From positions 2,480,001-2,544,000 of the forward strand of contig NZ_LT629710.1 of assembly GCF_900104535.1 (NCBI RefSeq): a stretch of 64,000 bases of DNA, read 5' to 3'. Shown in pieces: positions 19,825-51,949 of this stretch. The position numbers and the translations under genes are program-made. The notes beneath the pieces are model-generated. The model was not told the origin of the DNA. It saw only the letters and a program-made list of their open reading frames with translations, and ran no database searches. This DNA is from Nakamurella panacisegetis. GTDB taxonomy: Bacteria > Actinomycetota > Actinomycetes > Mycobacteriales > Nakamurellaceae. Each line of letters begins with the position of its first letter. Positions within the stretch are counted from its first letter, which is position 1.

Positions 19825-20885
19825 AGTCCGACAGCCCCCGGACCAGGGCCGACGGTCCGGGCGACGACGGGACGGACGCGCCGAAGTCCGCCACCATCTA
19901 CGACGTGGCGCGGAAGGCCGGCGTGGCCGCCTCCACCGTCTCCCGGGCCTTCGCCCGGCCGGGCCGGGTCAACGCGGTCACCGCCGAACGCATCCGTGGC
20001 GCCGCCGAAAGCCTCGGCTACCGGGCGAACCCACTGGCTCGCGCCCTGCCCACCGGCCGGACCTCCATCATCGCCTTCACCATCTCCGACGTGGCCAACC
20101 CGTTCTACGCCGAGATCATCCGGGGGGCCCAGGCGGCGGCGGCCGAAGCGGGATTCACCATGGTGCTGGCCGACGGCCAGGAGTCCGAGGTGCTGGAACG
20201 AGAGGCACTGGAACGGGTCATTCCCATCGTGGACGGGATCGTGCTCGCGACCAGCCGGATGTCCGACGCGGCGATCAAGGTGACCGCCCGGCAGAAGCCC
20301 ATGGTGGTGCTGAACCGCTCGATCCCGGAGGTCCCCAGCTTGACCACAGACAACCAGTCCGGCGTCCGTCAGGTGGTGGAGTACCTGCTGGGCCTCGGAC
20401 ACCGATCGGTCACCTACGTGGCCGGTCCGGAAGCCTCGTGGGCGGACGGCGCCCGCTGGCGCGCGCTGCTGGAGGTCGGTGCGAAGTTGAAGGTCTCGAC
20501 CCGCCGTATCGGACCCTTCGCTCCCACCGTTCACGGCGGCCGGGAGGCCGCCACTCACCTGATGTCGCCCCTCCCGTCCGCCGTGCTCGCCTACAACGAC
20601 CAGGTCGCCATCGGTGTGATCAACCAACTCGCCGAGGCCGGCATCGTCGTCCCCACGGCCGTCAGCGTCATCGGCTTCGACGACATCTTCGCCTCCAGCC
20701 TCATCACCCCGGCCCTGACCACGGTGGCTGCCCCCCTGCAACAGATGGGCGTCATCGCGGTCCGTAACCTGCTGGCGGTGATCAACGGTGCCCAACCACG
20801 AGCCGGTGGCGCGCTGGTGGTCCCCACCCACCTGATCGAGCGTGGCTCGGCCGGCCCCGCCCGTCACCGGAAGGACAAGGAATGA
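19821..20885 (+). CDS. LacI-family regulator inside the sugar-acid operon
   Basis: About 354 residues with an N-terminal LacI helix-turn-helix (ATIYDVARKAGVAASTVSRA), hinge (YRANPLARALPTGRT) and effector domain (AFTISDVANPFYAEIIRG, then AVLAYNDQVAIGVINQLAEA). GTG 19821 is chosen because it overlaps the upstream stop as GTGA; GTG 19788 is possible. It lies between the catabolic half and the lar half of the operon, so it is likely the operon's own repressor, acting at the AACCGGTT palindrome at 9872-9879. The inducer is presumably a uronate or aldonate. Confidence 0.87.
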   Translation: MKSDSPRTRADGPGDDGTDAPKSATIYDVARKAGVAASTVSRAFARPGRVNAVTAERIRGAAESLGYRANPLARALPTGRTSIIAFTISDVANPFYAEIIRGAQAAAAEAGFTMVLADGQESEVLEREALERVIPIVDGIVLATSRMSDAAIKVTARQKPMVVLNRSIPEVPSLTTDNQSGVRQVVEYLLGLGHRSVTYVAGPEASWADGARWRALLEVGAKLKVSTRRIGPFAPTVHGGREAATHLMSPLPSAVLAYNDQVAIGVINQLAEAGIVVPTAVSVIGFDDIFASSLITPALTTVAAPLQQMGVIAVRNLLAVINGAQPRAGGALVVPTHLIERGSAGPARHRKDKE

Positions 20886-22222
20886 CCACGATGGTTCCCG
20901 CTCTGCATACGCTGGGCGGCCCGGGCGCGGAGCTGAGCCACGAGGACGTCTCGGCGTTCATCGGGGAAGCCTTGGCCGACATCGACTTCCGTGGTCAGCG
21001 GGTGGCCCTGGTGGTGCCGGACGGCACCCGGACCTGCCCGCTGCCGCTGCTGTTGCGGGCCGTGCACGCCGTGCTCGCCCCGCAGACCGACGCCGTGACG
21101 GTCGTCATCGCGCTGGGCACCCACCAGGGCATGACCCCCGAGCACCTGGCCCGGCACCTCGGGTATCCGGAGGGAGAGGTCGGGTCGGTGTACCCCGGGT
21201 GGACCGTGATCAACCACGAATCCTGGCGGCCCGAGACGTTCACGACGCTGGGCACCATCACCGCGGACCGGTTGGCCGAGTTGACTCACGGACTGCTGAA
21301 CGGGCCGGAGGTCACGGTCCGGATCAACCGGCACGTCGCGCAGGCCGACATCGCGTTGGTGATCGGGCCGGTGTTCCCGCACGAGGTGGTCGGATTCTCC
21401 GGCGGCAACAAGTACTTCTTCCCCGGGGTGTCGGGTCAGGAACTCATCGACCTGTCGCACTGGGTCGGCGCGCTGATCACCAGTGCCGACATGATCGGCA
21501 CCAGCGGGATCACCCCGGTCCGAGCGCTGATCAACGAGGCGTCGAGGCTGATCCCGGCGCAGCGGCTGGCCCTGTGCCTGGTCGTCGCGTCCGGCACGGA
21601 TTCGTTGCACGCCATCGCCTTCGGTACCCCGGAGGACGCCTGGGCGGCATGTGCGGAGATCTCTGCCGAGACCCACGTGACCTATCGGGACGCGCCCGTG
21701 CGGCGGGTGCTGTCGATCATGCCGAGCAAGTACGAGGACATCTGGACCGCGGCCAAGGGCTTCTACAAGCTGGAGCCGATCGTGGCCGACGGCGGCGAGG
21801 TGATCATCTACGCGCCGCACATCACCGAGATCTCCGTGATGCACCCGCACATCGCCGAGATCGGGTACCACAATCGGGACTACTTCCTGGGTCAGTGGGA
21901 CCGGTTCAAGGACGTGCCCTGGGGCGATCTGGCCCACTCCACCCACCTGCGGGGGCAGGGCACCTGGAGCCCGGCCGACGGCGAGCGGAACCGGGTCCAG
22001 GTCACCCTGGCCACCGGCATTCCGGAGGACGTGGTGCGCGCGGTCAACCTCGACTACCTGGATCCGGCCACCGTCGACATCGCCGAGTACGAGGCCGATC
22101 CGGACACCTTCGTCGAACCGCACGCCGGTGAGGTGCTGTACCGCCTCCGTCGCCCCGGCGGCCCCCCGGGGACCGGGGAGCCCGACGGCCGCAGCGCGGG
22201 GCCCGACGGAGCCCAGGGATGA
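20882..22222 (+). CDS. LarA-family nickel-pincer-dependent racemase/epimerase
   Basis: A 446-residue homologue of lactate racemase LarA. The nucleotide/substrate loop DGTR is at 47-50, GTH at 79-81 and the core PHEVVGFSGGNKYFFPG at 166-182. His167, Lys177 and His193 are spaced exactly like His174, Lys184 (the cofactor-tethering lysine) and His200 as I remember them for Lactiplantibacillus LarA. It should therefore bind the nickel-pincer nucleotide made by the larE, larB and larC products encoded just downstream. LarA homologues racemise or epimerise alpha-hydroxyacids at C2. Flanked by uronate enzymes and gluconokinase, the most attractive substrate pair is D-mannonate/D-gluconate, which differ only at C2. 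The last 25 residues are a Pro/Gly-rich extension. ATG 20882 overlaps the regulator stop. Confidence 0.85.
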   Translation: MTTMVPALHTLGGPGAELSHEDVSAFIGEALADIDFRGQRVALVVPDGTRTCPLPLLLRAVHAVLAPQTDAVTVVIALGTHQGMTPEHLARHLGYPEGEVGSVYPGWTVINHESWRPETFTTLGTITADRLAELTHGLLNGPEVTVRINRHVAQADIALVIGPVFPHEVVGFSGGNKYFFPGVSGQELIDLSHWVGALITSADMIGTSGITPVRALINEASRLIPAQRLALCLVVASGTDSLHAIAFGTPEDAWAACAEISAETHVTYRDAPVRRVLSIMPSKYEDIWTAAKGFYKLEPIVADGGEVIIYAPHITEISVMHPHIAEIGYHNRDYFLGQWDRFKDVPWGDLAHSTHLRGQGTWSPADGERNRVQVTLATGIPEDVVRAVNLDYLDPATVDIAEYEADPDTFVEPHAGEVLYRLRRPGGPPGTGEPDGRSAGPDGAQG

Positions 22223-22746
22223 CGGCGGCCGAAAGGGCAGGTAAGGCCAAGACGGTCGTCGTGGTGATGGGGGTGGCCGGATCGGGCAAGACGACCGTCG
22301 CGCAGGAACTCGGGGCGGCGCTCGGGTGGCGGGTGGCCGAGGCCGACGACTTCCACAGCCCGGCCAACGTGGCCAAGATGGCCGCCGGCGTCCCGCTGAC
22401 CGACGAGGACCGCTGGCCGTGGCTGGCGTCGATCGTGGACTGGATCAACTCGATCGACGACAACGCCGTCGTCACCTGCTCGGCCCTGAAACGCATCTAC
22501 CGGGACCGCCTGGTGCAGGCCGCGGCCCGGGTCCGGTTCCTGCACCTGTCCGGCAGCCACGACACCGTCGGCGTCCGGATGGCCGCTCGCAGCGGGCATT
22601 TCATGCCGACCTCGCTGCTCGACTCCCAGTTCGCCACGCTCGAACCGTTGCAGCCAGGCGAGGACGGCGTCGCCGTCAGCATCGAAGGATCGCCGGAGCA
22701 AGTGCTGCGCCGGGCGCTGGACGCGCTGGGTCTGGAACAGAAATGA
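22219..22746 (+). CDS. gntK: Gluconokinase (GntK family)
   Basis: A 175-residue P-loop kinase that phosphorylates D-gluconate to 6-phosphogluconate. It has the Walker A VMGVAGSGKTTVAQ near residue 16 and family signatures EADDFHSPANVAKMAAG, TDEDRWPWL, CSALKRIYRDRLV and RSGHFMPTSLLDSQ. Length is typical for GntK/IdnK. It overlaps both neighbours by 4 bp (ATGA), tying it to the LarA homologue upstream and larE downstream. Its presence implies that gluconate is formed or imported by this operon. Confidence 0.92.
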   Translation: MTAAERAGKAKTVVVVMGVAGSGKTTVAQELGAALGWRVAEADDFHSPANVAKMAAGVPLTDEDRWPWLASIVDWINSIDDNAVVTCSALKRIYRDRLVQAAARVRFLHLSGSHDTVGVRMAARSGHFMPTSLLDSQFATLEPLQPGEDGVAVSIEGSPEQVLRRALDALGLEQK

Positions 22747-23582
22747 GCGCCGACCGGACCGAACTCCCGGTCCCCCGTTCACTTTCCGACGGATGGGCCG
22801 GCGTCGAGCGGCTCGGCGTTGCCTTCTCCGGCGGCGTCGACTCGTCCGTCCTGCTGGCCGCGGCCGTGCGTGATCTGGGTGCCGGCCAGGTGGTGGCGAT
22901 TCTCGGGGTATCGCCCAGCCTGGCCGCCGACGAGCACGAGGCAGCGCGGGCCACCGCCGCCCACATCGGAGCCACCCTGGTCGAGGTGCAGACCCACGAA
23001 GGCGACAACGACGCGTACCGCCGCAACGGGCCGGACCGGTGCTTTCACTGCAAGGACGAGCTGTTCACCCGGATCGACGAGGAGGTCCTGCACCGGAACC
23101 GGCTGGACGCCATCGCCTACGGCGAGAACGCCGATGACGCCGTCCGTCCGGACCGACCGGGGTCGAGAGCCGCGACCGGGCATCGGGTGCTGCGCCCGCT
23201 GGCCGACGCCGGGCTGGACAAGGCGGCCGTCCGCCGGCTGGCCCGGTCCTGGCGGCTGCCCTGCGCCGACAAGCCGGCCGCGCCGTGCCTGGCCTCCCGC
23301 ATCCCGCATTTCGACGAGGTCACCCCGCAGAAGCTGGCCCAGATCGACCGGGCCGAGAGCGCGTTGCGCCGCCTTGGACTGACCGACTTCCGGGTCCGCC
23401 ACCACGGTGACATCGCCCGACTCGAACTCCCGGCGGCCGACCTGGTCCGGGCCGCGGCCGACCCGTTGCGACGCCAGATCCGCCAGGCCGTGCTGGACGC
23501 CGGATTCCGTTACGCGGCCGTGGATCTGGGCGGCCTGGCGTCCGGAGCCTTCACCCTGACCGTGCTGGCCTCCGGTGCCTGA
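22743..23582 (+). CDS. larE: ATP-dependent sulfur transferase LarE (nickel-pincer cofactor synthesis)
   Basis: A 279-residue PP-loop protein. LarE adenylates the pyridinium dicarboxylate mononucleotide and donates sulfur, in the lactobacillar enzyme by sacrificing its own cysteine, to build the dithiocarboxylate of the nickel-pincer cofactor. The PP-loop SGGVDSS is at 29-35, a CFHCKDELF motif at 100-108, and PCLASRIPH with Cys182 corresponds to the sacrificial-cysteine region. Cys174 lies 8 residues before it, so an iron-sulfur-cluster type LarE that works catalytically is conceivable but cannot be decided here. ATG 22743 overlaps gntK; the 3' end overlaps larB by 8 bp. Confidence 0.9.
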   Translation: MSADRTELPVPRSLSDGWAGVERLGVAFSGGVDSSVLLAAAVRDLGAGQVVAILGVSPSLAADEHEAARATAAHIGATLVEVQTHEGDNDAYRRNGPDRCFHCKDELFTRIDEEVLHRNRLDAIAYGENADDAVRPDRPGSRAATGHRVLRPLADAGLDKAAVRRLARSWRLPCADKPAAPCLASRIPHFDEVTPQKLAQIDRAESALRRLGLTDFRVRHHGDIARLELPAADLVRAAADPLRRQIRQAVLDAGFRYAAVDLGGLASGAFTLTVLASGA

Positions 23583-24243
23583 CGACGCGCTGGCCGGGAT
23601 CGCCGACCTGGATCTGAACCGGGTCCGCCGGCGCGGATATCCGGAGGCGATCTACTGCGAGGGCAAGACGGCCGAGCAGGTCGGCCTGATCGCGGCCGAG
23701 ATCGCCCGGCACCGGGAGATCACCACGCTGTTCACCCGGGCCGGGGCCGCGCACGCCGCCGCGGTGCTGGCCCACCTGCCCGACGCGCGGTACGACACCA
23801 CCGCCCGGCTGCTGGCCTGGCCCCCGGAACCGCCGGCCCCCACCGGACGACCGGTGGTGGTCGTCGCCGCCGGCACCTCCGACCTGCCGGTGGCCCAGGA
23901 AGCCGCCCTGACCGCGCGCTACCTGGGTCGGGAGGTCGAACTGATCGTCGACGTGGGAGTGGCTGGGCTGCATCGGATCCTGGCCCGGCTGGACACCCTG
24001 CGCGGGGCCGGGGCGCTGGTGGTGGCGGCCGGAATGGACGGCGCCCTGCCGAGCGTGGTGGGCGGACTGGTGCAAGCGCCGGTCATCGCGCTGCCCACGT
24101 CGGTCGGCTACGGCGCGTCCTTCGGTGGCATCGCGGCTCTGCTGGCCATGCTGAACTCGTGTTCGCCCGGGGTGAGCGTGGTCAACATCGACAACGGTTA
24201 CGGCGCCGGCTATCTGGCCGCGCAGATCACCGCCCCGACATGA
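23575..24243 (+). CDS. larB: Pyridinium-3,5-biscarboxylate synthase LarB
   Basis: A 222-residue protein from GTG 23575. LarB carboxylates and hydrolyses nicotinic acid adenine dinucleotide, the first step of nickel-pincer nucleotide synthesis. N-terminal signature: DLNRVRRRGYPEAIYCEGKT. The C-terminal PurE-like domain has AAGTSDLPVAQEAALTA, DVGVAGLHRIL, GMDGALPSVVGGLV and LNSCSPGVSVVNIDNGYGAG; Cys196 in the last motif is the probable nucleophile corresponding to the essential cysteine of characterised LarB. It overlaps larE (8 bp) and larC (4 bp). Confidence 0.92.
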   Translation: MPDDALAGIADLDLNRVRRRGYPEAIYCEGKTAEQVGLIAAEIARHREITTLFTRAGAAHAAAVLAHLPDARYDTTARLLAWPPEPPAPTGRPVVVVAAGTSDLPVAQEAALTARYLGREVELIVDVGVAGLHRILARLDTLRGAGALVVAAGMDGALPSVVGGLVQAPVIALPTSVGYGASFGGIAALLAMLNSCSPGVSVVNIDNGYGAGYLAAQITAPT

Positions 24244-25457
24244 CGCACCTGTGGATCGACCCGTCGGCCGGCGTGGCCGGGGACATGTTGCTCGGAGCCC
24301 TGCTGGACGCCGGGGCCGACCTGACCGCGGTGCAGGGCGCGATCGATTCGGTGGTGGCCCGATCGGTGCGCCTGCGGGTCGAGGCGGTGACCAGGGCCGG
24401 GCAGCGGGCCACCAAGGCTCACGTCGACGTCCTGGTCGACGATCCGCCGCATCGCACCTGGCGCACCGTGCGGGGGCTGCTGGACGGGCTGCCCGGGGCG
24501 GTCGGGGTGTCGGCCCAGGCCGTGTTCGAACGGTTGGCGCGGGCCGAAGGTCACGTGCACGGCATCGATCCGGAACAGGTCCATTTCCACGAGGTCGGGG
24601 CGCTCGACTCGATCGCCGATGTGGTCGGGGTGTGCGCCGCGGTGGCGGACCTCGGCGTCACGTCGATCTCGGCCGGCGCGGTGGCGTTGGGCTCGGGCCA
24701 GGTCCGGGTCGCCCACGGCACCATCCCGGTCCCGGTGCCGGCCGTGGCCCAGCTCGCCCTCGGCTGGCCGGTCAGCGCCGGTGGCGATGGTGAGCTGACC
24801 ACACCGACCGGAATGGCGCTGCTGGCCGCGCTGGCCCGGCCTGAGCCGGAACTTCCGGCGATGGTGATGCGGACCGTCGGCGTCGGCGCCGGGACACGTG
24901 ACATCACCGGTCGGGCCAACGTCACCCGGATCCTGCTCGGTGACCTGATCGAGAAGGGTTCTCCCGCCACCAGTGCGGCGTTGATCCTGCAGGCCAATGT
25001 CGACGATCTCGACCCGCGGCTCTGGCCCGGCGTCCTGCAGGAGCTGCTGATCTCGGGCGCCGACGACGTGTGGCTCACGCCGATTCTGATGAAGAAGGGC
25101 CGTCCGGCCCACACGCTCAATGTCCTGTGCCGGCCCGAACGGGCGGATGGACTGCGGGACCGGATGTACGACCTGACCAGCACCATCGGTGTCCGTCAGG
25201 TCGAAGCGGCCAAACACGCCCTTCGCCGCTTCTTCGTCGACGTCGACGTGGACGGCGGCCCGGTGTCGGTCAAGATCGCGCTCCGGGACGGGGTCGTCAG
25301 CCAGGTCACCCCGGAGTTCGACTCGGTCGCGGCCCGGGCCGCCGCGCTGTCCCGGAGCCAGCCCGACGTGCTCCGGGCGGCGGAGCTGGCCGCCCGGGCC
25401 GCGGGTTGGCACCAGGGGGTTGTGGTCCCGCCGGCGGCTCCGGGCCGGACCGGTTAG
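24240..25457 (+). CDS. larC: Nickel insertase LarC (single ORF)
   Basis: A 405-residue CTP-dependent cyclometallase that inserts nickel into the pincer nucleotide. The N-terminus WIDPSAGVAGDMLLGALLDA, the HVHGIDPEQVHFHEVGALDS His-rich segment and the C-terminal ILQANVDDLDPRLWPGVLQE, WLTPILMKKGRPAH and TSTIGVRQ are all family marks. In lactobacilli larC is split into larC1 and larC2 with programmed frameshifting; here both parts are one continuous frame. It is the last gene of the operon; a convergent gene on the minus strand ends 22 bp away. Confidence 0.93.
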   Translation: MTHLWIDPSAGVAGDMLLGALLDAGADLTAVQGAIDSVVARSVRLRVEAVTRAGQRATKAHVDVLVDDPPHRTWRTVRGLLDGLPGAVGVSAQAVFERLARAEGHVHGIDPEQVHFHEVGALDSIADVVGVCAAVADLGVTSISAGAVALGSGQVRVAHGTIPVPVPAVAQLALGWPVSAGGDGELTTPTGMALLAALARPEPELPAMVMRTVGVGAGTRDITGRANVTRILLGDLIEKGSPATSAALILQANVDDLDPRLWPGVLQELLISGADDVWLTPILMKKGRPAHTLNVLCRPERADGLRDRMYDLTSTIGVRQVEAAKHALRRFFVDVDVDGGPVSVKIALRDGVVSQVTPEFDSVAARAAALSRSQPDVLRAAELAARAAGWHQGVVVPPAAPGRTG

Positions 25458-43905: not shown

Positions 43906-44194
43906 GCGGTCGTACCGGGGAGCAGCGTCGCACCGGAGAGTCCAATCCCGCACAGCCAAGCTACTATCAGAGGGGTAGTAGCTGGGTCGAGGCTAACGAG
44001 CGAAGCTCAGGGAATCCTATGACCAGACGATCTGGCCGGATGTGGACGAAGAGTCCGGACCGGCCGGGTAGACGATGGTGTGGTAAATGCAGGGGACAAA
44101 CACCCATCCGGCGTCGCCCTCGGGTATAAGGAGTATCCCGACAAGGGTCTTTGGTCCCTTGGCACCCTGGCGACAACCACCTACCGTCGGTGGG
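43906..44194. other. Degenerate intergenic stretch with DosR-like elements
   Basis: About 290 bp with no supported gene. The left end may hold further decayed gatD sequence. The right end is the upstream region of the small gene at 44195 and carries the palindromic GGGTCTTTGGTCCC and a weaker GGGACAAACACCC (44093-44105). Confidence 0.4.
44145..44158. promoter_or_regulatory. DosR/DevR-like box
   Basis: GGGTCTTTGGTCCC lies within a symmetric AAGGG...CCCTT context, 36 bp before the ATG of the small gene at 44195. It matches the DosR consensus core GGGACTWWAGTCCC at 12 of 14 positions. DosR boxes drive hypoxia/dormancy genes in many actinobacteria. No DosR gene is in the window, so the assignment rests on the motif alone. 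Confidence 0.4.
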
Positions 44195-44389
44195 ATGGCA
44201 TGGTTCTTTCGGGTGATGGAGCAGGGAGATGGCACGTGGGCGTGTCGTCACGGTCAAACGGTCTTCGATGCCCATGAGGCGCTCTCCCCGGCCCTGACCC
44301 ACATTGCCGAGTTGGCCCGCGGTTCCGGGCCGGCTCGAATATTTCTGCATTCCCTCGACGGGGACGTTCAGGAGTTGGAGCACCTGTAG
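44195..44389 (+). CDS. Small conserved-looking protein of unknown function
   Basis: 64 residues from ATG 44195: MAWFFRVMEQGDGTWACRHG, then an Ala/Leu helix (DAHEALSPALTHIAELARG) and a strand pair ending FLHSLDGDVQELEHL. The beta-alpha-beta pattern with W, C and H near the N-terminus resembles small DUF2188-like actinobacterial proteins, but I cannot name the family securely. A DosR-like box sits just upstream, suggesting hypoxia control. The gene lies between two pseudogenes, so it could itself be recently disturbed. It has no clear ribosome binding site. Confidence 0.5.
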   Translation: MAWFFRVMEQGDGTWACRHGQTVFDAHEALSPALTHIAELARGSGPARIFLHSLDGDVQELEHL

Positions 44390-44476
44390 GGGCGATGGCG
44401 ACCGGCATTGTCGGGCCCGGTTTCATCCCCCGGCGCAGCCACTCCACCAGGTCTTCCACCTGCACGTAGATCTGCC

Positions 44477-44800
44477 GCGGTAAATCGAGCCCAAGGGCCG
44501 GGTCTGCCCGGTCGTCATCTCTTCGATGACCTTGTCCGTGATCCGCGAGATCGTTTCTTTGGACACCGCCGCCGCCGTAGCTCTCCTGGAAGTGGGCCGA
44601 GATCTCCCCGGCGGTCAAGCCTTTCTCGTACAACGACGGCACGATCTCATCGACCCCGGCCAGTCGGCGCTGCCGCTCCTCCCGGGATCGGCGGCTCGAA
44701 CGTGCCAGCCCGGTCCCGCGGCACCTCGATCTCCATGTGCCAGTCAAGGATTGTGGTGCCGGTGCACCGTTTCGGTTGCGCGGCCCTGAGTTGTGAATGC
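44477..44800 (-). pseudogene. Decayed IS256-family transposase remnant (left)
   Basis: Reading the minus strand downward, three successive frames carry pieces of one IS256/Mutator-type transposase: MEIEVPRDRAGTFEPPIPG from 44736, then ERQRRLAGVDEIVPSLYEKG and LTAGEISAHFQESYGGG, then VSKETISRITDKVIEEM near 44570-44520. The order and spacing equal those of intact transposases (EVPRDR, KRQRRL-GVDE, GLTTGEISAHF, SKETISRITDKV). At least two frameshifts are present, and the catalytic DDE region and both ends are gone. It abuts the stop codon of the kinase gene at 44809. Confidence 0.8.
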
Positions 44801-44808
44801 ACCGGCTG

Positions 44809-47187
44809 TCAGCCGATGTGGTTGACGTAGATGCCGGTCTTGGCCAGGGCGAGGCACGTGCCGCCAGCGGGGGCGCAGGCGAGCCCGGCAAGGTAGCCGT
44901 CGAAGGTTTGTCGGGTGGTCCAGGTGGTGCCGTCGGTGGTGCTGGCAAGAACGGAGTTGGTGAACGTGTCGGTGCGGAGCAGGCAGGCGGTGTCGCGACA
45001 TACGGCGAAGGTGCCGTCGCCATATCTCGTGACGTCCGTCAGCGCCCAGAAGGTCCAGGTGTCTCCGCCGTCGTGCGTGCTGAACAGGGCGGATGCGCAT
45101 TTTGTGACGCCCTGGCCTCCGCATTGCGCGCCGCCGAAGACGATGCCGTCTGTGTCCGAGCCGAACGCGACCCCATTCAGCACGATTCTCTCGCCGCCGA
45201 AGAATCGGCCTGGGCCGGTGGGCGGGGGCGCGCCGGTGGCCTGGTCGAAGTCGCTGGGAAGAGGGATCGTGCGCCAGGACTGGCCAAGGTCCGCGCTGAA
45301 CCACGCGCGTGTCCCGACGGCCCAGCAGTGGGTGGCGTCGATGCAGTCGAGCGAAATGGCGGGCCCGGGCGCGGTAACGGGATGCCAGCGGTGGCCGCCG
45401 TCGGTGCTCGCCACCGATTCGGCCAGCCCGGACCGCTCGTCGCCGCCGACGGCGAGGCAGTCGTTCGCGGTGGGGCAGCTCGTGCTGTGCAGTGCGCTCA
45501 GCGGTGGCGCGCTTGCGGGCTGCCAGGTGGCGCCGGCGTCATCGGAGACGACGAGGGCGTCGCTGTGGCCGGTGTCTTGTGCGCCGATACAGTGCGCTGG
45601 ACTGGTGCAGGTGATCAGCCCGAGCGCGTAGGCAACAGGGGGGTACGTCGTGTGCCAGGTGAGGCCGGAGTCGGTGGTTGTGCTCAGGATCGGCTGCCCG
45701 GCCGCGTCCTTGCCGACGGCGAGACAGGTTGGCGATGTTGGGCAACTGGCGCTGTAGTAGGTATTCGCGGCAACGGCAGCGACCGGGGTGAAGGCGTGCG
45801 CAGCCACTGCGGCGAACGCCCGGGCCGGGGCCGTCGCGCGGGCGGTGGTGGACTCCCCGGTACCGACGGCAGGCAAAGGTGGGGGCGCCGGACCGGTCGA
45901 GTGGGTGGTCAGCTCGCTTTTCGTCGAGGTGGTGGCAGGGAGGGTGGGGTGGGCAACGGTGTCGGGTGTGGTCGGCCCGCCTGCTGGTGGTTGCCCAACA
46001 AGGTTTGTCGTGACGGAAGCGGGCCCAGCCGTCGTGGATGCCTCTGCGGTTCCCGCAGCAGCCGACGGATGGGAAGTGATCTTCCCGGCGACAACGACGA
46101 TGACGGCGGTGGCGACTACGGCCGCTACGGCGGACGCGCCGATCCGGGACCGTCTGGTGAGTCGGCTGATCCTGCGGGCCGACGAAGAACGGGGGCGATG
46201 CCCAGCGGCTGGGGTGCGGCTTGAGACGGATTCGGGGGTCGTTGTGATCGGCGGGGAAACCGAGTCCGTCTGTGCGACTGCGTGGGTGATGAGGGCGGCG
46301 GCGGCGCCGGCCAGGGCTCCCAGGCCGAGGCCGGTTCGCCACGCCGCGCCGTACCTCTGCTGGGCGGCCTGCTCCAGGGCGGCCAGGAAGTCCGCGGCCG
46401 TGGCGTACCGGTCGGCGGGGTCTTTGGACAGCCCTTTCATGCACAGTTGCGCCAAATCGGCGGCGAGGGTGGGTTCGAATTCCCTGGGGTCGGGCACAGG
46501 TGCGTTCAGGTGCATCCGGGCAACGTCGACCACCCGGTCCGATACGTAGGGGCGGCGCCCGGTGAGCAACTCGAACAGCACCGCCGCGCAGGCGTAGATG
46601 TCGCTGCGTCCCGTTACCTGATGGCCTGTGATTTGTTCCGGGCTCATGTATGCCGGCGAACCGGCCACCGAGCCGTCCGCTGACACCGCCCCCTGCGGGC
46701 GGGCCAGGCCGAAGTCGATGAGCCGGGACACTCCCCGCCGGTCGACCAGGATGTTGTCCGGTTTGACGTCGCCATGTATCAGGCCTGCGGTGTGTACCGC
46801 AGTCAAACCGAGCAGGGCCCCGCGCATGACGTCCAATGCCTGCGGGCCGGTGAGCCGACCGGCGGCGCGGGTCAGCACGGCCCGCAGCGATGCGCCGTCG
46901 ATCAATTCGGTGACGATCGCGGTGACATCGGGCTCATCGACGACGTCGATGACCCGGACGCAATGCCGATCCTGGATGCGCCGCATCGCATCGGCTTCGG
47001 ACCGCAATGCGGCCATGGACGCCTGGTCGTCGGTGCGATCTCGGTCCAGCACCTTCACCGCGACCGGCGACCCGATGGTCGGGTCAGAGCCCAGATAGAC
47101 GGTGCCGAAACTTCCCGATCCCAGCACCGCGCTCACCCGGTAGCGGCCCACGTGGGCCGGTTGATCACCACGGCGTTGTTCCCTCAT
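44809..47187 (-). CDS. Receptor-type Ser/Thr protein kinase with extracellular repeat domain
   Basis: A 792-residue membrane kinase. Residues about 15-275 form the kinase domain: glycine loop GSGSFGTV at 23-30, Lys45 in VAVKVL, catalytic loop HGDVKPDN with Asp140 and Asn145 (Gly replaces the usual Arg of HRD), and DFG at 158-160. A basic juxtamembrane stretch precedes the membrane segment at about 350-369; a hydrophobic stretch also occurs at about 286-303. Outside lie a Pro/Thr-rich linker and five or six repeats with paired cysteines and CxAVG ends (SCPTSPTCLAVG, SCPTANDCLAVG, DCIDATHCWAVG), looking like a BNR/sortilin-type beta-propeller. ATG 47187 overlaps the upstream stop as ATGA. It probably phosphorylates the FHA-LuxR protein encoded in the same operon. 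Confidence 0.87.
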   Translation of the reverse strand: MREQRRGDQPAHVGRYRVSAVLGSGSFGTVYLGSDPTIGSPVAVKVLDRDRTDDQASMAALRSEADAMRRIQDRHCVRVIDVVDEPDVTAIVTELIDGASLRAVLTRAAGRLTGPQALDVMRGALLGLTAVHTAGLIHGDVKPDNILVDRRGVSRLIDFGLARPQGAVSADGSVAGSPAYMSPEQITGHQVTGRSDIYACAAVLFELLTGRRPYVSDRVVDVARMHLNAPVPDPREFEPTLAADLAQLCMKGLSKDPADRYATAADFLAALEQAAQQRYGAAWRTGLGLGALAGAAAALITHAVAQTDSVSPPITTTPESVSSRTPAAGHRPRSSSARRISRLTRRSRIGASAVAAVVATAVIVVVAGKITSHPSAAAGTAEASTTAGPASVTTNLVGQPPAGGPTTPDTVAHPTLPATTSTKSELTTHSTGPAPPPLPAVGTGESTTARATAPARAFAAVAAHAFTPVAAVAANTYYSASCPTSPTCLAVGKDAAGQPILSTTTDSGLTWHTTYPPVAYALGLITCTSPAHCIGAQDTGHSDALVVSDDAGATWQPASAPPLSALHSTSCPTANDCLAVGGDERSGLAESVASTDGGHRWHPVTAPGPAISLDCIDATHCWAVGTRAWFSADLGQSWRTIPLPSDFDQATGAPPPTGPGRFFGGERIVLNGVAFGSDTDGIVFGGAQCGGQGVTKCASALFSTHDGGDTWTFWALTDVTRYGDGTFAVCRDTACLLRTDTFTNSVLASTTDGTTWTTRQTFDGYLAGLACAPAGGTCLALAKTGIYVNHIG

Positions 47188-47384
47188 CGGAGCCAACACA
47201 TCAGTGCGGCGGCGACGAGCAGCGCAGCGACGACGAACCCGTACAGGAAGGCTCGGGCCCGGTAACGACGCGGCCGGTACACCCGCACCCGCGCGGGAAC
47301 CGTGGGCAGCCCGCGGGGTGCCGCACCCCCCGCGGCCGGGGCGGTCGCGGCGAGGGTGTCCTCGGGGTGTTCAGGCGATGCCAT
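47184..47384 (-). CDS. Small single-pass membrane protein
   Basis: 66 residues from ATG 47384: an Ala/Pro-rich cytosolic N-terminus, a basic patch (RVYRPRRYRARA) and one C-terminal hydrophobic helix (FLYGFVVAALLVAAALMCWL). It overlaps the FHA-LuxR gene by 14 bp and the kinase gene by 4 bp (ATGA), so it is translationally coupled to both and may be an accessory subunit of the kinase system. No family recognised. Confidence 0.65.
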   Translation of the reverse strand: MASPEHPEDTLAATAPAAGGAAPRGLPTVPARVRVYRPRRYRARAFLYGFVVAALLVAAALMCWLR

Positions 47385-47913
47385 GATCGATCGCGTAACG
47401 GACCAGCTCAACCCTGCGGCGGCAGCCGGTCTTGTCGCGGATCCGGTCCAGATGCGAATGCACCGTCTTGACACTGATGAACAACTCGCCGGCCACCTGC
47501 AGGTCACCGTGCCCGGCACAGACCAGCCGGAGCACATCCAGCTCCCGCGCCGACAAACCTGTCTCCAGCCGGGTCCGGGTCAGGTCCCGCCCCTGCGCGT
47601 CGATGGTCTGCACCGGAGCGTCCTCGTCGCCCTGGAAGACCACGACGTAGTCGCCGATCAACAGCCGATCACATGAGCGAATGGCGGCCGGACCGGACAC
47701 CTTGCGCCCGTTGAGGTAGGTGCCGTTGCGGCTCCCACCGTCCTGCACCACCCAGTGCCCGTCCTGGGTCCGCAAGATGGCGTGCAGCCGGGACACCGTG
47801 GGATCTCCGGGGAGCTGGACCTCGCAGGTCTCGTCCCGCCCGATCCGGACCGGGTCGACCATCACGGACACGGTCCGGCGGCGGCTGCCGTCATGCACCT
47901 CGAGCCGGACCAT
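47371..47913 (-). CDS. FHA-domain LuxR-type transcriptional regulator
   Basis: 180 residues from ATG 47913, which has GGAGG six bases upstream; earlier in-frame codons are rejected for that reason. Residues about 1-100 form a phosphothreonine-binding FHA domain (RIGRD 23-27, SRLH 41-44, GSRNGTYLNG 60-69). Residues about 118-178 form a LuxR/GerE helix-turn-helix (GLSARELDVLRLVCAG, then ISVKTVHSHLDRIRDKTG). FHA fused directly to a LuxR DNA-binding domain is an uncommon pairing. It suggests that binding to a phosphothreonine, for example on the kinase encoded two genes downstream, controls promoter activity. It is the first gene of a three-gene operon, divergent from a secreted CHAP protein. Confidence 0.87.
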   Translation of the reverse strand: MVRLEVHDGSRRRTVSVMVDPVRIGRDETCEVQLPGDPTVSRLHAILRTQDGHWVVQDGGSRNGTYLNGRKVSGPAAIRSCDRLLIGDYVVVFQGDEDAPVQTIDAQGRDLTRTRLETGLSARELDVLRLVCAGHGDLQVAGELFISVKTVHSHLDRIRDKTGCRRRVELVRYAIDHGIA

Positions 47914-48243
47914 CCGCGCCTCCACCGAGAGGACCCACGCCGTTGTCCACGATGCGTGGTTCCAGCCACATCGCCGGTGATCCCGATTGACATCAACGCG
48001 GCCGATGCCGCTGCACACCAGGAACCGATACCCACACATTTAACGCCGAAATGCCCGCAGCCAACACCGGACTGCGGGTGCCACCGTTTGGGAACAACTT
48101 CCTGCACCGCCGCGAAGCCCCGCCGCGCGGAACTCCCGCCGCCAACGGCCCCGCCGGACTGACACGGCGCGCAGCACCTCCGTCCACCTGCGCCGTCACC
48201 GACGGCAACCAGAGACTGACCCCCTAGGCAAGGAGCAAAAGAG
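47914..48243. other. Divergent promoter region with a stem-loop/dyad
   Basis: 330 bp without a supported gene, between the FHA-LuxR operon and the CHAP gene. It contains the inverted repeat CCCGCAG (48054-48060) / CTGCGGG (48072-48078) with an 11-base spacer, which could be an operator for the FHA-LuxR protein. Confidence 0.4.
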
Positions 48244-49077
48244 ATGGAGCGCAAGCGAAGGATGATGCATCCAGATGCGGCGGTTGGCGCCGCCACCAGC
48301 CGTGGGGGCTGGGTCCGGCGCGCCGTCCTGGTCGCCGCCGCGGTCGCCGCCAGCTGCGTGGTCGCCCTGCAAAGCGGCGGTATCGCCTCGGCCACCGGCG
48401 TTTTCTCCACCACGGCGGCCGTCAACGTCCGCAGCGGCCCGGGCACCAACGCCGCCGTCATCGGCGGTGAACCCGCGGGCGCAACCTTCACCCTGCGCTG
48501 CCAGTGGCAGGGCGGCACCAACATCGGCGGCAACGCTACCTGGGACAGCGTGCAATTCGGCAACGGCGTCGTCGGTGCGATCACCGACTACCTGACCACC
48601 ACCCCATCCTGGAACAACTACGCACCTGGCACACTGCCCTGCCTACCTGCGACGCCTGGCCCGCCCGCACCGTCGCCGGCTGTCACCCCGCAGATGCAGA
48701 ACGCCGCCAACTGGGCCGTCGGCGAGAAGAATTCCCCGGACCCGACATGGAGCGATTACTTTCATCGCCCCTGGAGCGGCTTGTGCGAAGCATTCGTTCA
48801 ACAGGCGGAAGGATTCCGGTTCCAGTTCGGTTCCGCGTTGGCCGACTACTACTGGCAGAAGAACAACGGCCGCATCCACCTGGATCCTTACCCGCCGGTT
48901 GGGGCGCTGGTCTTCTACGCTGGCGGCGCCTACGGACACGTTGCGGTCTCTATCGGTGGCGGCCAGGAAGTGGGAACCTACGGTTTCGACGGGCAACGGC
49001 TACCCGTCAGGCAGTACCCGGTGACCGGCTACTTGACTAATCGGTACCTCGGCTGGTCCCGGCCCATCGGCAGTTGA
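48244..49077 (+). CDS. Secreted SH3b-CHAP domain protein, probable cell-wall amidase/endopeptidase
   Basis: 277 residues from ATG 48244 with AAGGAG upstream. A signal peptide (VRRAVLVAAAVAASCVVAL, cleavage near ASA-TG) is followed by an SH3b domain (AAVNVRSGPGTNAAVIGGE) at about 57-120, a Pro-rich linker, and a CHAP/NlpC-like domain with Cys in WSGLCEAFVQQAEG and His in AYGHVAVSIGGGQEV. Such proteins cleave peptidoglycan peptides or bind the wall. It is divergent from the kinase/FHA-LuxR operon and upstream of two lipoprotein genes, so wall remodelling under control of the kinase is plausible. Confidence 0.8.
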   Translation: MERKRRMMHPDAAVGAATSRGGWVRRAVLVAAAVAASCVVALQSGGIASATGVFSTTAAVNVRSGPGTNAAVIGGEPAGATFTLRCQWQGGTNIGGNATWDSVQFGNGVVGAITDYLTTTPSWNNYAPGTLPCLPATPGPPAPSPAVTPQMQNAANWAVGEKNSPDPTWSDYFHRPWSGLCEAFVQQAEGFRFQFGSALADYYWQKNNGRIHLDPYPPVGALVFYAGGAYGHVAVSIGGGQEVGTYGFDGQRLPVRQYPVTGYLTNRYLGWSRPIGS

Positions 49078-49291
49078 CCCAAGCCCGACCACCGTCGGAT
49101 CTGGGCCGAAAGACTGCGACCACGTGCCGAGCATGGCGACCGGCAGTCATTTGAGCGCGATCAGAACCGCCGCCCGGCCTCGAGTGTGGGCCGCCACCTC
49201 CCGGTGGCCCGAACTCCCCAGACTCTCGATCCCACCACTGCCACCGTTGCGCTCGGCACGGCCGAGCACAGCAACCGACCTGGAGGTTGTC

Positions 49292-50338
49292 ATGAACACA
49301 GAGACCGGCCCAGCCGCCCGGACACTGTTGGGGGCGCTGGTGGGCGTCGCCTTGTTGGTCGTTCTGGCCGGGTGCGGCGGCACCGCCTCGCCGCCGCCCA
49401 CCGCGTCCGGTCCGCCGATCCGGGACGTCTCGGTCGCCTCCGGTGTGCGTTCCGCGCCACCGCCGGGCCGGCTCACCGGCTCGGCGACCGCAGCAGAATC
49501 TGTGGCCTCGGCGCCCGGCTTGCCGGCCGATTGGTCCGTCCAATCGATCCGCGCAGCTACCGCCGGCCTGCGGGCGTGCGCGCAGGCCGCCACCCTCACG
49601 CCGCCGGGTTGCCCCCAAGCAGTCAACACCTACGGCGATGCCCTCACCGCCCACTGGCACCTGCTCAACCAGCCCCTCGAGCACGCCGTCGCCGTTCGGA
49701 TGGAACCACCCGGCGAAACGGGCGGCGCCCACTCCGCGGGAAGGGTCGCGGTCTTCGGCCTGTACCAGATGGACGTCTCCTACACCCTCGCGGGCCAGGG
49801 CCTACGCCCCTACCGCGACTACATCGGCGGCACCGCGGCGGCCATCGTGACCTGGGACGGCAGCGCCGTGTCCAACGTCGCGTTCCCCCAGAACAGTGCT
49901 CTGCTCACTGATCTGCCCTCGGTGACCGTCAAACCGTTCAGCCGCCCCGCCGAGGTCAGCGACGCCGCCGTGCTGCAGGCTGTCACAGCAGGATTCAAGC
50001 AATGCGTGACGTTGAAGATGCCGCTTTCGGCCGTGGTCGGCATCCACAGCACAGCGCCCGCCGTCCCCAACTGCCCGCAACAACTGCTCGGCGGTTTGGA
50101 CGTGAACACCGTCAGCGCCAGCTGGGTCCTCAACGCCGACCCCATCCAGGGCGCGCTGGTGTCCTTCGACACCCAACACGGCAATTTCGCGCTCACCGGC
50201 AGCTACGACATGACCCTGAACAGTGTGATCGCCAACGTCCCCTACGCCGGCCCGCGCACATCCCGCAGCACCGGCACCTACACCGCCACCCTCACATGGG
50301 ACGGGCAGCAACTCACCCTGGTCACAATCGACCGATAA
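49292..50338 (+). CDS. Lipoprotein of unknown function (paralogue 1)
   Basis: 348 residues from ATG 49292 after TGGAGG. The lipoprotein signal GALVGVALLVVLAGCGG puts the lipid-modified Cys near residue 29. The mature part repeats a two-half pattern: each half has a paired-cysteine motif (CAQAATLTPPGCPQ; CVTLKMPLSAVVG then NCPQQ) followed by a beta-rich stretch (AVFGLYQMDVSY; GALVSFDTQHGNFALTGSYD) and a WDG strand (VTWDGSAV; LTWDGQQ). Disulfides are likely. No family recognised. It is about the same size and design as the next gene. Confidence 0.72.
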   Translation: MNTETGPAARTLLGALVGVALLVVLAGCGGTASPPPTASGPPIRDVSVASGVRSAPPPGRLTGSATAAESVASAPGLPADWSVQSIRAATAGLRACAQAATLTPPGCPQAVNTYGDALTAHWHLLNQPLEHAVAVRMEPPGETGGAHSAGRVAVFGLYQMDVSYTLAGQGLRPYRDYIGGTAAAIVTWDGSAVSNVAFPQNSALLTDLPSVTVKPFSRPAEVSDAAVLQAVTAGFKQCVTLKMPLSAVVGIHSTAPAVPNCPQQLLGGLDVNTVSASWVLNADPIQGALVSFDTQHGNFALTGSYDMTLNSVIANVPYAGPRTSRSTGTYTATLTWDGQQLTLVTIDR

Positions 50339-50373
50339 CCAGCCACCGCTCGCCCGTCATCCGGAGGTCCGCA

Positions 50374-51384
50374 ATGACCGCACATCCACCGACCGCTGCC
50401 ACCAACGGCCCCCTGCGACGTGGGCTACTCGCGGTCGCGGTCGCGGTCGCGGCCTGCGCCCTAGCAGCCGGCTGCAGTTCCAACCTCACCGAGCCTGGAA
50501 CCCCAACAGCCATGCCCTGCGCGTCACTGCCGGGATGCACACCGCCGATCCCGCTACCCTCCACGTCCGTCCCGCCGGGACTTCCGCTGGACTGGTCCGT
50601 GCAGGCGATTCGCGCCACCACCGTCGCGTTCCTGACCTGCGCCCAGTCGACCTCGTTGCAGCCGCCGAACTGTCCCCAAAGCCTGGCCGCCGGTGAAGCC
50701 CTTACCGCGCACTGGAGGGTCCTCAACCGACCCCTGGACTACGCCGTCGCCGTCCCCGCGCCTGCCCAGCCCGGCGTAGCGACTGCGGCCGGTCAGGTCA
50801 CTGTATTCGGGCTATACCAGATGGACGTCTCCTACACGATCGGCGGTCAGAGTCTGCGGCCCTTCCTCGACTACGTCGGTGGCATCGCGGCGGCCACCAT
50901 GACGTGGGACGGACACTCATTCCAGAACGTCCAATTCCTCTCCAGCGACGCGGCCGCCGCGGAGCCTGCCCCGAACCTGCCGCCCTTCGCCCGCCCCACC
51001 GAGGTCGCGGACGCCGCGGTTCTGACCGCCGTCAAGGCCGGCTTCACCGACTGCGCGACCCTTGCCGTTCCGCTCACCGCAGGCGGCCTGGCCATCCCCA
51101 ACTGCCCTCAGAGCGCCGCCGTGATCCAAGTCGGCACAGTCACCAGCGCCCAATGGACCCTCACCAGCGACCCCGTGCAGGGCGCGCTCGTCTCCTTCGA
51201 CACCGCCCACGGCAATTTCGCCGTCACCGGCAACTACCACATGGACCTGCACTACACCACCACCAACGGCAACGCCCTCTCACCTGACAACGGACCCCAC
51301 ACCGGCAAGGCCAGCGGCAACTACACCGCAACCCTGGACTGGGACGGCCACCAACTGAAACTGCTCAAGATCGCCGCCCCGTGA
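50374..51384 (+). CDS. Lipoprotein of unknown function (paralogue 2)
   Basis: 336 residues from ATG 50374 with CGGAGG upstream. Lipoprotein signal LLAVAVAVAACALAAGCSS. The mature sequence aligns along its length with the preceding gene: LDWSVQAIRATTVAFLTCAQ, VFGLYQMDVSYTIGGQSLRP, FARPTEVADAAVLTAVKAGF and QGALVSFDTAHGNFAVTGNY all have close counterparts, including the cysteines. This marks an old tandem duplication that has diverged. Function unknown; surface location and linkage to a CHAP protein and a kinase suggest cell-envelope work. Confidence 0.72.
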   Translation: MTAHPPTAATNGPLRRGLLAVAVAVAACALAAGCSSNLTEPGTPTAMPCASLPGCTPPIPLPSTSVPPGLPLDWSVQAIRATTVAFLTCAQSTSLQPPNCPQSLAAGEALTAHWRVLNRPLDYAVAVPAPAQPGVATAAGQVTVFGLYQMDVSYTIGGQSLRPFLDYVGGIAAATMTWDGHSFQNVQFLSSDAAAAEPAPNLPPFARPTEVADAAVLTAVKAGFTDCATLAVPLTAGGLAIPNCPQSAAVIQVGTVTSAQWTLTSDPVQGALVSFDTAHGNFAVTGNYHMDLHYTTTNGNALSPDNGPHTGKASGNYTATLDWDGHQLKLLKIAAP

Positions 51385-51549
51385 GATTATTCGGTCGCCA
51401 AATCATCTGGTTCTAAGGACCAGCGTGAGCACACAAATCGGGAGTATCCGGGGAAGGGTGTACATGATCTTGGTCCTTGACACGCCGCGCTCAGCTTGGC
51501 GGGAAGGAACCGAGATCATCGATGCCATGCCGAATCGGAACGGATTGAT

Positions 51550-51660
51550 CAGCAGCCGTTCGGCCAGGCCCTGGTGGAGCAGGCCCGATCTGAGGGGGTC
51601 GACCCGATTGGGCCCCAGGGTCTGCTCGAGCCGGCGATCGTGCGCAAGCGCCAACGCCGC
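51550..51660 (+). pseudogene. IS256-family transposase remnant (right)
   Basis: QQPFGQALVEQARSEGVDPI followed by GPQGLL is the N-terminal start block of IS256-type transposases (LVEQARAEG-x-x-L-GP-GLL). It is joined directly to EPAIVRKRQRR, a block that normally lies about 80-100 residues later (FEPQIVRKRQRR), so an internal deletion is evident. The frame then continues into integrase sequence at 51661. Confidence 0.7.
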
Positions 51661-51804
51661 GCCAACGTGAAGTCAGTGCAGATGATGCAGGGGCACAAGT
51701 CGGCTGCGACGACGCTGGACGTCTACGCGGACCTGTTTCCCGACGACCTGGATCTCGTCGCAATCGCGCTTGATCAGGCAGCGTCTGCAGCGGTTGTGCC
51801 GAAA
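51661..51804 (+). pseudogene. Tyrosine recombinase (integrase) C-terminal remnant
   Basis: ANVKSVQMMQGHKSAATTLD followed by VYADLFPDDLDLVAIALD is the C-terminal end of a phage/ICE-type integrase, with the GHxSAxxTLDxY box and the nucleophilic tyrosine. The HxxR part and the rest of the enzyme are absent. It lies 70 bp from the end of tRNA-Pro, the usual place for an integrase next to its attachment site, so an integrated element once ended here. Confidence 0.75.
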
Positions 51805-51817
51805 ACTGCCCAAGGTC

Positions 51818-51862
51818 AGAAGAAGGGCCAGCCTCCGACTGGCGTAGGCTGGCCCTTCTTCT
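51818..51862. terminator. Strong hairpin, probable bidirectional terminator
   Basis: A perfect 17-bp stem, AGAAGAAGGGCCAGCCT (51818-51834) against AGGCTGGCCCTTCTTCT (51846-51862), with an 11-base loop. It lies 11 bp beyond the 3' end of tRNA-Pro on the minus strand and just after the integrase remnant on the plus strand, so it can stop transcription from both sides. Confidence 0.8.
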
Positions 51863-51871
51863 GCGGTGTCA

Positions 51872-51949
<78 letters not shown>

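Follow-up and report, generated by a model that had tools for sequence, protein, structure and literature searches.

The 64,000-nucleotide stretch of the Nakamurella panacisegetis genome analysed here (called the window; the genome is a single contig of 5.01 Mb) carries on its minus strand an operon that encodes, in this order, a regulator made of a forkhead-associated (FHA) domain and a LuxR-type helix-turn-helix (HTH) domain, a protein of 66 amino acids (aa), and a receptor-type Ser/Thr protein kinase (STPK). All FHA-HTH proteins that we collected, 72 of 72 in a first set and 17 of 17 in a later one, have a Thr after the last FHA strand and before the HTH, and 32 of the 89 FHA-HTH genes have an STPK gene no more than 1.7 kb away. 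The conservation of the linker Thr is new here; in the open-licence literature of PubMed Central (PMC) we found no paper on an STPK paired with an FHA-LuxR protein, nor on the linker Thr of FHA-HTH proteins. From these sequences we propose that kinase and regulator of the window are a cognate pair, in which the kinase would phosphorylate the linker Thr, the FHA domain would bind it, most likely in trans, and two LuxR domains would thereby be paired. We give this proposal an even chance of being correct.

The kinase operon and its products

The operon comprises the following features:
47371..47913, minus strand: FHA-LuxR (GerE) regulator, 180 aa, with Pfam FHA and GerE above cut-off; FHA about residues 23-88, linker 94-118, HTH 119-180
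47605..47607, minus strand: codon (ACC) of linker residue Thr103, which we propose as phosphorylation site and as ligand of the FHA domain; a linker Thr occurs in 89 of 89 FHA-HTH proteins, and that of the window stands at offset 10, outside the main column
47184..47384, minus strand: 66-aa protein with one predicted C-terminal membrane helix (hydropathy, overlaps with both neighbours, codon score)
44809..47187, minus strand: receptor-type Ser/Thr kinase, 792 aa (Pfam Pkinase); the kinase domain spans 16-262 and is followed by a membrane helix at about 349-367 and an outer domain that has seven Cys pairs

A preliminary description of this DNA had reported overlapping genes, divergent from genes for an SH3b-CHAP protein and two lipoproteins, and both gene order and overlaps were confirmed. 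The stop of the regulator gene (47371) falls 14 nt within the start of the 66-aa gene (ATG 47384), whose own stop shares a single ATGA with the kinase ATG at 47187. The likely start of the regulator is ATG 47913, preceded by GGAGG, and the divergent region is therefore 47914-48243, as previously delimited. For the 66-aa protein the hydropathy is 2.47 over residues 45-63 and the codon score is weakly positive (9.4 in frame, with both other frames negative); no family matched it in Pfam or NCBIfam.

The regulator belongs to the FHA+LuxR subfamily by its Pfam matches (FHA, 67.8 bits against a cut-off of 20.7; GerE, 51.7 against 23.5). It is not of the EmbR family, having an N-terminal FHA domain and no OmpR-type DNA-binding or BTA match in Pfam at E <= 1, nor is it a two-component protein, with no histidine kinase or receiver match in Pfam and no receiver among the NCBIfam matches listed. 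The Arg, Ser, His and Asn that we take to be the phosphothreonine contacts of FHA domains are all kept.

The kinase is of the Hanks type (Pfam PF00069, 155.1 bits against 31.7, with AVKV, HGDVKPDN and DFG). Its catalytic loop reads HGD where HRD is usual, as first noted in the preliminary description, and its activation segment, DFGLARPQGAVSADGSVAGSPAYMSPE, has no Thr, which sets it apart from the RD-type kinases controlled through the activation loop; among the 15 partner kinases whose activation segment was readable, only this one is without Thr. Because the HRD Arg is lost and the activation segment has no Thr, its sequence suggests that the kinase is not under activation-loop phosphorylation control, and its activity may perhaps be set by the outer domain or by the 66-aa protein. 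It is not a PASTA kinase of the PknB type: NF033483 scores 260.2 bits against 450, and the Pfam and NCBIfam scans gave no PASTA match. By hydropathy, residues 349-367 form a strong membrane segment and residues 287-305 a weaker one. Since an Arg-rich stretch precedes residue 349, the topology suggested is one in which the weaker segment does not cross the membrane and the Cys-paired part lies outside. This C-terminal part contains seven Cys pairs (482/488, 527/533, 571/577, 615/621, 689/697, 730/735, 771/778), with spacings between first Cys residues of 45, 44, 44, 74, 41 and 41, and a pattern search found five Asp-box-like motifs in it. Of the cysteine-paired, propeller-like exterior described earlier, the Cys pairs and Asp-box patterns thus stand; the word propeller rests on the repeat pattern, since the Pfam matches are below cut-off (BNR, 17.6 against 27; Sortilin-Vps10, 20.5 against 33) and the single-sequence AlphaFold2 (AF2) model, at pLDDT 36, is unusable. 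Compared with PDB sequences the outer domain has one match, a sialidase at E 0.055, and among 60 related genomes it has a single weak match elsewhere and no close relative.

Kinase genes beside FHA-HTH genes

The first set of 72 full-length FHA-HTH proteins was drawn from the window (1), related genomes (7), a search of 396 genomes of the phylum (57), and a contig scan (7, of which five from Chloroflexota). The 57 are the full-length matches down to E 6.7e-17; at least 10 weaker full-length matches were left out. Loci of less than 5 kb were left out of the later set of 17. STPKs were detected with a profile built from five partner kinases, and several FHA-HTH loci end at contig ends. In the first set 22 of the 72 genes have an STPK within 1.7 kb (50 are without one at this distance, and two of these have one at 2.6 and 3.9 kb), and in the later set 10 of 17 do, five of the ten being close kin of a Kelch type already present. 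As a control we took LuxR-only genes: none of 25 loci has an STPK within 1.7 kb and one has an STPK anywhere in the locus, these being Streptomyces loci that are near-copies of one another. As STPKs adjoin FHA-HTH genes far more often than LuxR-only genes, and the FHA contacts are kept, the window kinase and its FHA-LuxR protein are probably cognate on sequence evidence.

The linkage is unevenly distributed over the family. On the first tree the linkage label needs 6 changes, against a mean of 19.1 for shuffled labels, and a branch with support 99/96 separates 30 rows, 21 of them linked, from 42 rows with a single linked one; with both sets taken together, 31 of the 47 genes outside the 42-row clade are linked, as against 1 of the 42 within it. 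The enlarged tree holds 58 of the 89 rows, 31 near-copies from the unlinked clade having been excluded beforehand, and the Chloroflexota rows are placed differently in the two trees. The branch of the window has four rows in the first tree and nine in the enlarged one (support 100/99): the window, N. aerolata (contig NZ_JABEND010000007.1), two metagenome-assembled genomes (Ilumatobacteraceae and KLAP17), genome G490, and four proteins of family f116. The distance from regulator to STPK on this branch is 0.19 kb in the window, 0.26 in N. aerolata, 2.6 in Ilumatobacteraceae (where two predicted genes intervene), 0 in KLAP17, and 0.45 in G490. The orientations are of four kinds: downstream and co-directional in the window, divergent in N. 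aerolata and Ilumatobacteraceae, convergent in KLAP17, and upstream and co-directional in G490. All four recur among the 22 linked STPKs of the first set, of which 8 lie downstream and 2 upstream in the same direction, 7 are divergent and 5 convergent; the linkage of kinase and regulator survives rearrangement.

Outside the kinase domain the partner kinases vary, some having Kelch repeats, others YVTN/lactonase-like repeats, an NADase-translocation-like domain, or a cyclase with an AAA/STAND NTPase. Four of the ten that were scanned have kinase matches alone at E 1e-5. The kinase of locus L127 is interrupted by a contig end. HGD is found in 5 of the 22. At two loci (L148, 5363-11308; L159, 6570-9815) the FHA-HTH gene is followed by an HGD kinase fused to cyclase and AAA/STAND NTPase domains.

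The linker threonine and its possible role

A Thr falls within linker positions 7-15 in all 89 proteins; shuffled linkers give a mean of 53.9, and the highest of 2000 shuffles is 67. In a set made non-redundant at 60% identity it does so in 29 of 29 (shuffled mean 19.5, highest 27). An acidic residue stands just before the linker Thr in 79 of the 89 (shuffled mean 37.6, highest 51) and in 21 of the 29 (12.7 and 20). FHA proteins without an HTH, a control drawn from loci fetched for other reasons, have a Thr in the same stretch in 26 of 41 cases, and when made non-redundant in 17 of 31, near the shuffled level (mean 13.2, highest 19). The comparison of FHA-HTH with FHA-only proteins gives a Fisher p of 2e-5, which is descriptive, the related sequences not being independent. 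In the main linker column of the 89 proteins there are 76 Thr, 4 gaps, 9 other residues and no Ser, and besides this column none exceeds 21% Thr among the 29 non-redundant proteins. FHA domains are specific for phosphothreonine, which the absence of Ser from the column fits. Actinobacterial STPKs prefer acidic residues ahead of Thr; the acidic residues ahead of the linker Thr fit this preference and, by analogy, the ETTS motif of GarA, a protein regulated via phosphorylation at that motif, which adjoins its FHA domain (PMC12321487).

In the mechanism that we propose, the membrane kinase would sense an external signal via its Cys-paired repeat domain and, inside the cell, phosphorylate the linker Thr of the FHA-LuxR protein, Thr103 in the window. 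The FHA fold has its binding face opposite its termini, and because some ten residues are short for the linker Thr to reach the face of its own FHA domain, the phosphothreonine would be captured by the FHA domain of a second protomer, most likely in trans; the dimerisation of Chk2 is a parallel. The pairing of protomers would then bring two LuxR domains together for DNA binding, with the own operon as a likely target and perhaps, by their position, the divergent genes. The preliminary description had the FHA domain reading a phosphothreonine of the kinase. A cognate pair with its FHA contacts kept is likely enough, and the usual form of such reading is less so, given the HGD and the activation segment without Thr; the linker Thr appears the better candidate ligand. 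For the family at large, the corresponding view is that FHA-HTH proteins may be widespread single-protein, kinase-gated transcription factors of Actinomycetota and Chloroflexota, turned into DNA-binding dimers by phosphorylation of the linker Thr and FHA capture in trans, and served by STPKs with interchangeable sensors as a counterpart of two-component systems. This wider view we hold tentatively, as plausible though somewhat short of even.

Several observations weigh against these proposals. The FHA Arg is replaced by Lys, Leu or Thr in 9 of the 22 kinase-linked proteins, and by Ala in one protein of the later set. Four rows of the window branch, those of the window, N. aerolata, KLAP17 and Ilumatobacteraceae, do not have Thr in the main column; theirs is at offsets 10, 10, 14 and 10, respectively, and Thr103 sits two to three residues away from the column. 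As these rows lack Thr at the strict column, the evidence speaks less strongly for Thr103 than for the family. The linker Thr is found as well in each of the 50 first-set proteins that have no linked kinase, and it is therefore not a marker of a neighbouring kinase in particular. The four f116 rows of the window branch have no STPK in the DNA examined, two of them lying in tandem on a 7.2 kb contig. Finally, two kinases related to that of the window (G038, 43%; G059, 39%) have no FHA-HTH gene in the DNA fetched around either. In the first set 21 of 22 kinase-linked proteins retain the Asn of the FHA NG motif, against 17 of the 50 unlinked ones; in the later set all 17 retain it, although seven are unlinked. 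From these sequences we read its retention as a property that separates off the large unlinked clade, not as one of kinase linkage.

The kinase might also autophosphorylate and be docked by the FHA domain, in the manner of EmbR or GarA, the regulator then being phosphorylated elsewhere or held at the membrane and the linker Thr being no ligand. PknH-EmbR is described as working in this way, mutations in the FHA domain abolishing the phosphorylation of EmbR (PMC4601284), and the window kinase offers a Thr-rich stretch (Thr315-317, Thr325) between kinase domain and membrane helix. Autophosphorylation in the activation loop is, however, opposed by the missing activation-segment Thr and by HGD in place of HRD, and docking leaves unexplained why all 89 proteins have a linker Thr, whether a kinase gene is nearby or not; we judge this course rather unlikely. 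That the FHA-LuxR protein is instead a partner of the cell's general kinases (PknA/PknB type), the adjacent kinase having other substrates and the linkage being a loose functional clustering, would suit the 50 of 72 genes that keep the linker Thr with no STPK within 1.7 kb and the related kinases with no FHA-HTH neighbour, but is improbable in view of the overlapping reading frames in the window and of the STPKs that stand, in every possible orientation, beside most genes outside the large unlinked clade.

The nearest known system is PknH-EmbR of Mycobacterium tuberculosis, likewise a receptor Ser/Thr kinase with an FHA-bearing DNA-binding regulator, the two genes being neighbours; in the window, too, the kinase gene adjoins that of the FHA regulator, in an overlapping operon and with a linkage that recurs. 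EmbR differs in having an OmpR-type DNA-binding domain, a BTA domain and a C-terminal FHA domain, whereas the window protein has an N-terminal FHA domain, a LuxR HTH and no BTA match; the outer domain of the kinase differs as well. The interaction of PknH with EmbR requires the FHA domain (PMC4601284). FHA and LuxR_C were combined in one protein, as here, in the actinobacterial proteins listed for Nocardia and Rhodococcus in 2012; that census, in its passages on the subfamily, inferred a single origin in the ancestor of Nocardia and Rhodococcus and gives neither kinase linkage nor linker Thr (PMC3466318). The FHA-HTH genes found here extend beyond those it lists, to many more Actinomycetota families and to Chloroflexota. 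To call the system undescribed, as the preliminary description did, was thus too strong: the FHA+LuxR architecture was in print, FHA regulators under STPKs are the EmbR-PknH paradigm, and the window pair is a variant of a kind already known. GarA and OdhI are also FHA proteins controlled by a phosphorylated Thr in an acidic-flanked motif near the FHA domain (PMC12321487), but their motif is N-terminal to the FHA domain, they have no DNA-binding domain, and their targets are enzymes. Two-component systems with NarL/LuxR-type output share the membrane sensor kinase and the LuxR-type DNA-binding output; the window has instead an STPK and an FHA domain, with no histidine kinase or receiver domain. 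For bacterial Ser/Thr kinases in general the specific route to transcription is described as poorly defined, most cases being pleiotropic and passing through two-component or other regulators (PMC4601284 and PMC6213207). With a dedicated pair of kinase and regulator and a named candidate for the switch residue, this question can be put to the test using two proteins and a single point mutant, and the many other FHA-HTH genes found here lend themselves to the same approach.

Three groups of FHA-HTH proteins may be added for their linkers. The Chloroflexota proteins (L104, L108, L111, L114, L115) have a divergent kinase and a conserved linker motif, SDATMPL. In the 42-row unlinked clade (L125-L129, for example) the linker reads EDATMVF or similar and the FHA Asn is often lost. 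Locus L241 has tandem FHA-HTH genes (7-534 and 714-1220) with linkers of a different type from the others, and no kinase on its 7.2 kb contig.

The divergent genes and the tRNA-Pro region

The divergent region, the plus-strand genes beyond it and a tRNA gene are as follows:
47914..48243, no strand: intergenic region between the divergent genes; its best inverted repeat, CCCGCAG-N11-CTGCGGG, is at 48054-48078
48244..49077, plus strand: secreted SH3b-CHAP-like protein, neighbour gene; Pfam SH3_3 and CHAP, both below cut-off
49292..50338, plus strand: lipoprotein 1, paralogue of lipoprotein 2 by sequence comparison, neighbour gene
50374..51384, plus strand: lipoprotein 2, possibly tandem NTF2-like domains (low-confidence AF2 model, weak Foldseek matches), neighbour gene
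51873..51949, minus strand: tRNA-Pro(CGG), edge of the variable region (ARAGORN)

The sub-cut-off Pfam matches of the SH3b-CHAP-like protein (SH3_3, 20.3 against 27; CHAP, 19.4 against 26) are in the expected order. The lipoproteins, 52-53% identical to each other, have a hydrophobic N-terminus ending in Cys; the AF2 model of the second is of low confidence (pLDDT 52.9), and its Foldseek matches to NTF2-like folds are weak (E 3e-3 at best). Among 61 genomes the lipoprotein search returned their own two copies and one match of 40 residues (E 9.8e-4), with no full-length relative in the 60 related genomes. The CHAP protein has weak matches in four other genomes and none in the other 16 Nakamurella. 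Neither lipoprotein nor CHAP genes lie beside any other FHA-HTH copy among those examined; on this comparison they are species-specific, and the gene set that recurs is that of STPK and FHA-HTH.

That the LuxR domain switches these wall-protein genes, as proposed in the preliminary description, found no backing beyond their position, by which they may be under its control. The HTH helices of the window and N. aerolata proteins are identical across FISVKTVHSHLDRIRDKTGCRRR. In a search for an operator common to their upstream regions, the best shared words did not outscore shuffles, save where both regions enter the FHA coding start, and a common operator was rejected. No 5-bp dyad is common to any two of five upstream regions, and a promoter and terminator scan of 47900-48300 found none. 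The inverted repeat at 48054-48078, for which no chance test was made, is not shared with relatives.

The CHAP and lipoprotein genes might have been carried in by a mobile element at the tRNA-Pro gene, or be left over from one, and be unrelated to the kinase system; the kinase operon itself may have arrived in the same way. The metallophosphoesterase gene beside tRNA-Pro is present in 19 of 19 genomes, and in 11 of 11 Nakamurella stretches fetched the tRNA lies near this gene and the genes beyond differ. Beside the tRNA (region 51385-51949), a putative tyrosine-recombinase-like C-terminal tail at 51496-51894 runs into the tRNA gene, and putative transposase-like fragments in several frames mark the opposite end of the variable region, near 44.0-44.8 kb (43967-44830). 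The want of close relatives of lipoproteins and outer kinase domain in the 60 related genomes is of a piece with this, as are weak structural matches between the lipoprotein and NTF2-like proteins of conjugation. On the other side, no attachment-site repeat was recognised at the two ends of the variable region, the G+C is not unusual, and the shared divergent promoter region would equally fit co-regulation. That the neighbours of the kinase operon may be cargo of a tRNA-Pro integration hotspot is thus a serious possibility, which we rate slightly below an even one.

Elsewhere in the window, 20882-25457 holds genes that resemble LarA, LarE, LarB and LarC (nickel-pincer cofactor) within a sugar-acid catabolic cluster.

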